In this document: positions 15,566 through 18,364 of the stretch, one piece after another
How the letters are laid out: the number at the start of each line of letters is the position of its first letter
Numbering within the stretch: position 1 is the stretch's first letter
From: Gemmatimonadota bacterium
Lineage (GTDB): Bacteria > Gemmatimonadota > Gemmatimonadetes > Gemmatimonadales > Gemmatimonadaceae
Assembly: GCA_027307165.1 (NCBI GenBank)
Contig: DAHUXM010000025.1
Span: forward strand, 1-64,000
Length of the DNA stretch: 64,000 bases
Direction of reading: 5' to 3'
Position numbers and translations under genes: made by a program
The notes under the pieces: generated by a model
Told to the model about the DNA's origin: nothing
Seen by the model: only the letters and a program-made list of their open reading frames with translations
Database searches by the model: none

Positions 15566-17239
15566 ATGGTCCGGCAGCTACTGCACGTACTGTCCCCCAA
15601 AGTGCAATCGCTTCGCGCGGTTGCGCGACGGGGATCACGCGGACGCGGCGCGCGAATCGTTCTTTTGTCGACTGTCGGCGGAGTGTTCTGGCTCTGCGTA
15701 TTCGGCGTCACCTACCGGCTGCTGACGTACTTCAGGAACGTTCCAGAGATCGGCACGCTGCTCGCGGCAAAGCTGCTCGGCCTGGTGCTCGTGAGCTTTT
15801 TTGGCCTTCTGTTGTTGTCCAACGTCATCACCGCGCTGTCCACCTTCTTCCTCGCGCGTGATCTGGACCTGCTCGTTGGAACCCCAGTCGACTGGCTGTC
15901 AGTCTATTGCGCGAAACTCATCGAGACGCTGGTAAACTCCAGCTGGATGGTCGTGTTGATGGCGTTTCCCATCTTCACGGCATACGGAATCGCCTACGAC
16001 GGAGGTTGGTGGTATCCGCTCGTTGCAATCGCCGCAGTGATTCCATTTCTGATAATCCCGGCTGCCGTGGGCGCAGCCGTCACGCTTCTGCTTGTCAACA
16101 TTTTTCCCGCACGTCGCACACGCGACATTCTGAGCGTGATCACTGTGCTCGCCGCTGGCGGCGTCATACTCGCGTTCAGATTGCTGCGTCCCGAACGACT
16201 CGCCCGACCGGAGGGCTTCCGCTCGCTCGTCGATTTTCTCTCAGTTCTGCGCACGCCCACCTCGCCGTGGCTCCCGAGTGACTGGGTGCAGACGGGGGTG
16301 CTCGGCTGGCTGCGTTACGAGCCGGATGCGCTGCCGTTCTATCTACTGTGGTCGACTGCTGCGGCGCTTGTCGTCATGGGTGCGATACTGCATCGCACCC
16401 TCTACACCGCTGGCTTCAGCAAATCACAGGAAGGAAGCGGCAGAACGGCCACACGCGGCCGCGTACGGTCGCTCATGCTGCTGAACATACTCCCGGCCAC
16501 GCGGCGAGAGCTGGTGCTCAAGGAACTGCGCCTGTTCTTCCGCGATACGACGCAGTGGTCGCAGCTGATCCTGCTGGTCGTGCTCGTCGTCGTGTACGTG
16601 CTCAACATTCGCTTCCTTCCATTGCGCGGCGACGGAATAACCTTCTTCCTCGCCAACATCGTTCCATTCCTGAATCTCGTGCTCGCGGGATTCGTGCTCG
16701 CCTCGATCGCTGCGCGGTTCATCTTTCCATCGGTGAGCCTGGAAGGACGCACGTGGTGGCTGCTCAAGGCCAGTCCACTCTCGATGCGCGACCTGCTGTG
16801 GGCGAAGTTCTGGGTGGGTACGATGCCACTTCTCGCGTTGGCACTCGCGATCGTCTTCACGACCGACGTGTTGCTCGAGGTGAGCGAGTTCATGACCGCT
16901 GTCTCCATCGGCACGATCACGCTGCTTACCTTCGCAATATCCGGCCTCGCGATCGGCGCGGGAACCATGTTCCCCCAGTTCGAAACTGAGAACGCGGCTC
17001 AGATTCCTACATCGTTCGGCGGTCTCATATTCATGATGACCGCCATTTCGCTCATCGGTGCCGTGATCGTGCTCGAGGCGCGGCCGGTGTACACGTATCT
17101 CCTGGCGCGATCGTTCGGGAGCCCGATCGACCCGACCGAGATGATAATCGCCTTCTCGGCCGCGGCGGCATTGTGCCTGACGGCAACTCTGGCACCGATC
17201 CACCTGGCGGTGCGACGGTTGACTGCACTGGAGCTATAG
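15566..17239 (+). CDS. ABC exporter permease subunit
   Basis: A large membrane protein of 557 residues with about ten to twelve hydrophobic segments. Examples are IVLLSTVGGVFWLCVFGVTY near 33, a pair around 65-100, and a C-terminal cluster from about 340 onwards. It has the look of two fused ABC-2 permease halves with a basic central linker. The substrate is unknown; no biosynthetic genes lie nearby. The stop overlaps the end of the convergent TonB-plug gene by 6 bases. Confidence 0.82.
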   Translation: MVRQLLHVLSPKVQSLRAVARRGSRGRGARIVLLSTVGGVFWLCVFGVTYRLLTYFRNVPEIGTLLAAKLLGLVLVSFFGLLLLSNVITALSTFFLARDLDLLVGTPVDWLSVYCAKLIETLVNSSWMVVLMAFPIFTAYGIAYDGGWWYPLVAIAAVIPFLIIPAAVGAAVTLLLVNIFPARRTRDILSVITVLAAGGVILAFRLLRPERLARPEGFRSLVDFLSVLRTPTSPWLPSDWVQTGVLGWLRYEPDALPFYLLWSTAAALVVMGAILHRTLYTAGFSKSQEGSGRTATRGRVRSLMLLNILPATRRELVLKELRLFFRDTTQWSQLILLVVLVVVYVLNIRFLPLRGDGITFFLANIVPFLNLVLAGFVLASIAARFIFPSVSLEGRTWWLLKASPLSMRDLLWAKFWVGTMPLLALALAIVFTTDVLLEVSEFMTAVSIGTITLLTFAISGLAIGAGTMFPQFETENAAQIPTSFGGLIFMMTAISLIGAVIVLEARPVYTYLLARSFGSPIDPTEMIIAFSAAAALCLTATLAPIHLAVRRLTALEL

Positions 17240-18364
17240 CGAGGGCCCGACGAATGTGAACGGCAGCTGAACCAGCTGTCGAACGGGATGGCCGCGCAGG
17301 CGCGCGGGAATGAACCGGGCTTCCGAAAGCGCCCGGACTACTGAGGCCGCGAACCGAGGATCGGTCGACGAGACAATGCCAATCGTTTCAGGCTCGGGGC
17401 GCCCAGTAGCGTCGACCACGAACTCCGCCAGGACTCGTCCGGGGATGCGCTCCCTGTAGAGAGGATCGGGATACCAGGGCGTGACAGGAGCCGACGAGTC
17501 CGCTCGCGCGGGTATGTCCACCTCATCGGCGGTGTAAACCTTGAGACGATCTACAAGGTCGGCGAGTTCCGCCGCAGTGAGCGATCTCTTCTTTTTTGGC
17601 TCGCCCTGGCGGGTCCAGACAACGATGGTGCCGCAGAGTATGGGACCGAGCCGATCGACGAACTGCGGCGGAACGGTGGCGATGCTCGAGTAGATCTCGA
17701 TTCCGGCGATATCGCTCGGCGTCACCCAGTCCAGATCGAACTCTGCCGAGTTGGCCGGCGTGCCATCGATCCAGACCGACGGCCAGCAGCTATTGCCGCG
17801 AACGCGAACATGAGACTCGTCCGGATTGGTTGCCGTGACCTGAATTCCCGGAACCATCCGGAGCATGTCTGTGATCTTCATCGGCGCGCGCTCCGCAATT
17901 TCGTCAGCCGTGATGAAGTGGCCGAAGCCTTGATCTCGTCGTTCGTAGAATCCCGCCAGATAACCTTCATAGTGGCGCGGAAGCTTTGCGCGCACGACCA
18001 CCGCGCTGAGCTGGTGCGGTACTTCCTTCATCGTCACGTCGACGTGTGTGGTCGTTCGGCTCGTGACGACAACATCGATGGACACCGGCAAGAAGCCCAG
18101 GCGCCTAAGGTGCAACGACCCTGGTCCGGGAGGGACTGCCTGGAGGACGAACCGGCCGGAATCGTCGCTCTCGGCGTTGAGCGCGGTGCCGGCCACGGAG
18201 ACTTTCACTCCGTTGATTCCAACACCGAGGGAGTCACGCACGGTGCCGGTGATGGTACCCTGCGCTGCAGCGTTGCGGGTAAACGCCGGCGACGCGCTCA
18301 GGATCAGGAGCGCAGGCAGCATTACAGCTGAACCTCTTGAGATCCGCACGGGCGACCAGTGCAT
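17234..18364 (-). CDS. Barrel-less protein: carboxypeptidase-like domain, TonB plug and TonB C-terminal domain
   Basis: A 376-residue exported protein with an unusual order. After a signal peptide (cleavage near NAAAQG) comes a carboxypeptidase-regulatory-like beta sandwich (TITGTVRDSLGVGINGVKVS). Next is a TonB-dependent receptor plug-like part (MKITDMLRMVPGIQVT, then CWPSVWIDG). The end is a TonB C-terminal-like domain (GRVLAEFVVDATGRPEPETI, ASVVRALSEARFIPARLRG). The 22-strand receptor barrel is absent. The start at 18364 is set by GGAGG five bases upstream. It could be a periplasmic coupling factor or a plug-domain scaffold; function is unknown. Confidence 0.8.
   Translation of the reverse strand: MHWSPVRISRGSAVMLPALLILSASPAFTRNAAAQGTITGTVRDSLGVGINGVKVSVAGTALNAESDDSGRFVLQAVPPGPGSLHLRRLGFLPVSIDVVVTSRTTTHVDVTMKEVPHQLSAVVVRAKLPRHYEGYLAGFYERRDQGFGHFITADEIAERAPMKITDMLRMVPGIQVTATNPDESHVRVRGNSCWPSVWIDGTPANSAEFDLDWVTPSDIAGIEIYSSIATVPPQFVDRLGPILCGTIVVWTRQGEPKKKRSLTAAELADLVDRLKVYTADEVDIPARADSSAPVTPWYPDPLYRERIPGRVLAEFVVDATGRPEPETIGIVSSTDPRFAASVVRALSEARFIPARLRGHPVRQLVQLPFTFVGPSL

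Follow-up and report, generated by a model that had tools for sequence, protein, structure and literature searches.

The window, by which is meant the whole 64,000-nucleotide stretch of DNA analysed here, carries on its minus strand an open reading frame of 376 amino acids at positions 17234-18364 including the stop codon, with the coding part at 17237-18364 and the stop at 17234-17236. An upstream GTG start would lengthen the product to 407 amino acids; the ATG at 18364 is preferred because it fits a signal peptide. The stop end of this gene shares six bases (window 17234-17239) with that of a convergent gene for an ABC transporter (PF16949). The product begins with a Sec signal peptide (residues 1-34; 18263-18364), recognised from the sequence and judged by eye to be likely cleaved before Q35, which is followed by a SusC-type N-terminal extension (NTE) with a carboxypeptidase-D (CPD) regulatory-like fold (residues 36-116; 18017-18259), assigned from Pfam and from a structural match to 9hfj. 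Next come a degenerate Ton-box-like strand, LSAVVVRA (residues 119-126; 17987-18010), assessed from pattern counts across the copies of the gene described below, and a receptor plug (residues 142-253; 17606-17941), assigned from Pfam and from a structural match to 6z9a_B. The plug contains two cysteines, Cys193 (17786-17788) and Cys244 (17633-17635), which covary in an alignment of 97 copies. A linker (residues 255-282; 17519-17602), delimited from the model and the alignment and containing a predicted helix (264-274) and a conserved VYTADEVD segment, leads to a TonB C-terminal domain (residues 283-376; 17237-17518), which is assigned from Pfam and fold and includes the conserved last strand VRQLVQLPFTF. 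All of these features lie on the minus strand.

Three Pfam families exceed their curated cut-offs in the 376-residue protein, namely CarboxypepD_reg (37-113, E 1e-14), Plug (151-229, E 2e-10) and TonB_C (PF03544; 296-371, E 2e-9), and neither a beta-barrel family nor an STN domain is among the five families listed to E 1. After the plug only about 120 residues are left, and these are occupied by TonB_C. In NCBIfam, residues 37-224 align with positions 2-180 of the SusC/RagA model TIGR04056, and the TonB family model TIGR01352 scores the protein above its cut-off. The latter match is an annotation trap, since the protein could on this basis be named an energy transducer though no motor anchor is seen in it.

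Structure models were built from three sequences, and both the full-length AlphaFold2 model (mean pLDDT 63) and the model of the plug stretch alone (mean pLDDT 65) are of modest confidence. Within the full-length model, residues 36-116 match the NTE of SusCdex (9hfj; Z 13.8, rmsd 1.8, 80 residues aligned with VIA-align), residues 142-253 match the plug of SusC BT1763 (6z9a_B residues 96-206; Z 10.0, rmsd 3.0, 104 aligned) and residues 283-376 match TonB in its complexes with FoxA (6i97_D, Z 12.1) and BtuB (2gsk_B, Z 10.5). The best match of the plug-only model is again 6z9a_B (Z 9.8, rmsd 2.7, 102 aligned), and its best 50 listed matches are all TonB-dependent transporters by title. Comparison of the models with known structures thus supports all three predicted folds. 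The first-pass annotation had described a signal peptide, a carboxypeptidase-like domain, a plug and a TonB C-terminal domain in one 376-residue chain devoid of a barrel, and had named structure prediction of the plug as a check; the Pfam and fold matches bear out the description, with a plug fold predicted even for the isolated stretch.

A search of 179 genomes from the window's own family, the Gemmatimonadaceae, yielded many full-length copies of the gene, and a single-sequence scan of the collection found one relative. For further analysis, matches reaching both ends of the query were picked out, giving 97 copies from 82 genomes, whose common architecture is therefore partly a matter of choice. 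These copies are 28-91% identical to the window protein, keep the domain order unchanged and are each encoded in a single reading frame; scanned one by one with Pfam, 96 show Plug, 96 TonB_C and 95 CarboxypepD_reg. The nearest relative, in genome G041, is of equal length (376 amino acids) and differs at 33 residues, and the values for the pair (dN 0.043, dS 0.148, dN/dS ~0.29) point to purifying selection. A frameshifted or truncated receptor, which had been raised earlier as the finding to look for in relatives, is rejected on the length of this nearest relative and the presence of TonB_C in 96 of the 97 copies; the fused gene is a conserved family, neither a frameshift nor a remnant.

The distribution of the full architecture was followed in two samples of the phylum, comprising 249 and 298 genomes with 7 and 5 candidates scored per genome, respectively. 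Among the matches listed for the two samples, the plug and TonB_C are spanned together only in the window's own family, and those from elsewhere in the phylum end after the plug. A profile search of the 298-genome sample separates fused from plug-only matches by a gap in score from 313 to 252 bits. Outside the Gemmatimonadota the search was directed at plasmids alone, where 13 records matched; none of them has a single place covering more than 80% of the query, and the best place in each record ends by query residue 275, before TonB_C. Tandem pairs of the fused gene occur at three loci (L001:5911-8270, L085:6936-9986 and L118:335-2963; L147 was left out as a duplicate of L001), and the pair at L001 directly precedes one pair of SusC and SusD-like genes. 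At L086, SusC is preceded by one fused copy, and a second follows the SusD-like gene.

Of the 97 copies, 86 had at least 2 kb of downstream sequence, and 24 are followed by a SusC-like gene that starts no more than 1 kb away in the same orientation; a SusD-like gene stands behind SusC in 21 of the 24 linked copies, the fetched sequence of the other three ending 2.7-3.3 kb downstream. SusC or SusD is nearby on the same strand in six further copies and convergent in another six, eight copies have too little downstream sequence for a call, and 53 have neither within about 1.5 kb, a few of which (L081, L085 and L151) have one farther off. These counts exclude 13 further full-length or partial matches, most of them at contig ends. 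Gaps of -62 to 400 bp separate the fused gene from SusC; these values are underestimates, as open reading frames were called from the first start codon. SusC was called from one protein scoring 454 bits with TIGR04056 and from similarity of the others to that protein. SusD was called from a nine-protein profile that matches SusD chains in the PDB (7kv1, E 6e-7; 3iv0, E 1e-6); the three SusD-like proteins that were tested had no SusD match in Pfam or NCBIfam. Seventeen of the 21 SusD-like genes are of the profile type (three of them weakly, at 48-60 bits) and four are of another type, one member of which has only weak TPR matches in Pfam.

By a rough estimate, a random gene would be followed by a gene for a receptor-sized plug protein in well under one case in a hundred, because the window's own genome has 18 plug frames of receptor size (at least 700 amino acids and over the cut-off, with one plug-only frame left out). 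In an unrooted tree, the directly linked copies belong to three groups with top support, which contain 7 such copies among 8 rows, 16 among 23 and 1 among 43, and the copies inside one group are not independent; the third linked group comprises one directly linked copy and five with SusC or SusD nearby. The adjacency could reflect shared descent within clades. The window copy itself has no SusC neighbour and lies between genes for cytochrome c maturation (CcmE/CcmF/CcmH) and the convergent ABC-transporter gene. The proposal of the first-pass annotation that the protein might regulate SusC-like transporters thus gains from the SusC genes directly downstream of 24 copies, although the copy on which it was made is not among these. 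Common neighbours of the solitary copies were considered and rejected, as candidates recur only among a few loci in the gene map, in parts of which antisense reading frames displaced real genes.

The N-terminus bears on whether the protein could be energised. The pattern S-x3-H is the Ser/His motif of the TonB membrane anchor. By eye, the window protein has no TonB-like membrane segment with this motif, and its signal is of the cleavable type; across the family, crude rules find a cleavage-like motif at the N-terminus in all 97 copies, a lipobox-like pattern in five and SxxxH in three. Direct coupling of the fused protein to ExbB/ExbD is unlikely because no TonB-type anchor is seen. The identity of an energised TonB is rejected on the same absence of a Ser/His anchor, and the earlier suggestion that the protein couples energy in the periplasm is not upheld.

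Further differences from SusC are found in the receptor-like half. The strand LSAVVVRA sits at the Ton-box place of SusC and is degenerate in sequence: the stricter Ton-box pattern L.[EQD]V.V is present in 5 of the 97 fused copies versus 12 of the 24 adjacent SusC proteins, and the looser pattern L..V.V in 52 of 97 versus 15 of 24. Cys193 and Cys244 are both present in 81 copies and both absent in 16, with no copy retaining a single one, and the equivalent positions are not cysteine in any of the 24 adjacent SusC plugs (one of which is gapped at one position). As judged from this covariation, a Cys193-Cys244 disulfide may replace the support that a barrel gives to the plug.

In TonB itself, the final strand of the C-terminal domain pairs with the Ton box. 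In the fused protein, the TonB C-terminal domain is 46% and 48% identical to those of the two anchored TonBs of its own genome, both of which have, by eye, a membrane segment with S-x3-H and one of which is encoded next to ExbB- and ExbD-like genes (named from sequence). The pattern VRQLV.xPF.F in the last strand is common to all three proteins, the VYTADEVD segment of the linker also aligns with the two TonBs, and the last-strand residues V361, Q363 and F371 are kept in at least 90% of the copies. Among five TonB_C sequences of the genome that were compared, the highest identity (50%) is to an M56-TonB_C protein. At L162:1-4555 (own genome C25:109000-113554), genes for a BlaI-like repressor (named from sequence), an M56 (BlaR1-type) peptidase-TonB_C fusion and a CPD-containing protein (871 amino acids, cut by the fetched edge) lie in a row on one strand; the fusion is another instance of a TonB domain outside a TonB protein. 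A 334-amino-acid frame at L013 (own genome C7:60304-60600), with a signal-like N-terminus by eye, a TonB_C-like end and no plug, is possibly a second soluble TonB_C protein.

By its sequence, the fused protein resembles barrel-less CPD-plug proteins that occur across the phylum. Five such paralogues are present in the window's own genome (L167:5867-7465, L164:4416-5966, L165:7562-8512, L166:6655-7461 and L168:3955-6306), with one to four CPD repeats and an end right after the plug. The Plug family is above the Pfam cut-off in two of them, just below it in two and not listed in one. The fused protein scores 66-110 bits against these paralogues versus at most 58 bits against the full receptors of the genome. 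By eye, all five have a cysteine at the place of Cys193 and a C-terminal end of the form C-[GA]-...-W-T-[KR], and in no case is the next gene downstream of receptor size.

The fused protein is tentatively proposed to be a secreted periplasmic accessory of SusC-type TonB-dependent transporters that would dock on Ton boxes without pulling, a reading to which slightly less than even confidence is attached. While the NTE-plug-TonB_C architecture is conserved and built of known modules, the accessory role is our best-supported guess, and the mechanism is one that we infer. An ancestral barrel-less CPD-plug protein, with its plug held by a disulfide in place of a barrel, would have gained a TonB C-terminal domain in which the final strand that clamps the Ton box was retained. 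This domain would probably dock on the Ton box of a partner SusC, binding it but not pulling, with the NTE-plug half serving as a receptor mimic. Through occupation or presentation of the Ton box, the fused protein would then set when an energised TonB can open the SusC transporter; the outcome for SusC would be gating, insulation or holding during assembly. FusB, a TonB-like protein, is reported to interact with the Ton box of its receptor and also with its substrate (PMC7593965), which indicates that specialised TonB domains exist. It is possible, though somewhat less probable than the accessory role itself, that these proteins make up a separate class, in which barrel-less receptor mimics with a TonB clamp domain of their own act as soluble readers of the Ton box that are not energised; they would be dedicated to the SusC-type transporters of the Gemmatimonadaceae, gating a given one or insulating it from the shared TonB motor. 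The fused protein touches two broader questions, namely how many transporters can be served by one TonB motor and what part the NTE plays in SusC. Deletion of the SusC NTE in B. theta is reported to abolish growth on levan, with transporter biogenesis mentioned by the authors, who call the function of the NTE unknown and suggest specificity for different TonBs (PMC7782687). A conserved protein that unites the TonB-facing parts of a receptor with the clamp of TonB, and that has SusC as a neighbour in a quarter of the copies, would give a small soluble handle on both questions.

Other roles were weighed against the accessory reading. In a VreA-like signalling role, the receptor half would contact a regulator in the inner membrane, while the TonB-like half would sense a partner, the output being transcription and not transport. 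VreA of Pseudomonas aeruginosa (PA0674) is reported to be likewise barrel-less and mostly soluble, with a receptor-derived N-terminal domain and a TolA/TonB-like C-terminal domain (PMC2729926), and three genomes of a single genus (L105, L106 and L156) have ECF sigma genes at a distance of 1.8-3.2 kb from the fused gene, a possible VreA-like arrangement. The role is nevertheless considered unlikely, as the STN-like domain of VreA is not found by Pfam in the fused protein, no ECF sigma gene was found beside the window copy, the contig's nearest PF08281 match being at 146417, and deletion of vreA is reported to have left PUMA3 promoters at wild-type level under low phosphate (PMC4971064). ECF sigma genes were found at only 4 of 93 loci with queries taken from 12 of the 26 PF08281 places in the window's own genome, and on this count ECF-sigma signalling is rejected as a general role.

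The position directly before SusC in 24 of the 97 copies would also suit an assembly factor that accompanies SusC across the periplasm and uses its own plug and NTE to mimic or hold the client's counterparts until barrel insertion, as would the levan phenotype and the mention of biogenesis cited above (PMC7782687). We regard this as rather improbable, since 53 copies are without a close SusC or SusD, Pfam finds no chaperone domain in the 376-residue protein and the TonB_C domain would be left unexplained. Comparably little weight is given to a general envelope scaffold or ligand-binding protein, in which plug and TonB_C would serve adhesion and have nothing to do with transport: such a role accords with the five barrel-less paralogues that have no receptor-sized gene directly behind them, but the adjacency to SusC in 24 copies and the conserved final TonB strand speak against it. 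The presence of a Ton-box-like strand and TonB_C in one chain might further suggest a passive relay, with an energised TonB pulling on the strand and the force passing via TonB_C to a receptor; given the degeneracy of the strand, in which the stricter pattern is kept by so few copies as compared with SusC, this is highly improbable. The accessory role at SusC-type transporters is retained as the preferred reading.

No paper on the NTE-plug-TonB_C architecture was found among the matches listed in the open-licence literature, and the fused protein is best placed by comparison with systems that hold parts of it. SusC/RagA transporters have the same order of NTE (CPD) and plug, whereas the fused protein is devoid of a barrel, has a degenerate Ton box and carries an added cysteine pair and TonB_C. 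With TonB energy transducers, including FusB, it has the C-terminal domain in common by sequence and fold, but it lacks the S-x3-H transmembrane anchor, and the NTE-plug half replaces anchor and spacer. The M56 (BlaR1-type) peptidase-TonB_C protein is also a non-TonB fusion, and differs by its Peptidase_M56 domain and in having no plug. The order of CPD and plug is common to the barrel-less CPD-plug proteins of the phylum, which end after the plug, the addition of TonB_C being confined to the Gemmatimonadaceae among the matches listed. The closest precedent, by analogy, appears to be VreA, with a somewhat similar build that its authors call unique (PMC2729926). This protein of PUMA3 cell-surface signalling combines, as does the fused protein, a signal peptide, a receptor-derived N-terminal domain and a TolA/TonB-like C-terminal domain with no barrel; the text available on VreA describes an STN-like domain and no plug, in contrast to the NTE and plug of the fused protein, and places its gene with ECF sigma and anti-sigma genes (PMC2729926), where a subset of the fused genes has SusC-SusD neighbours.
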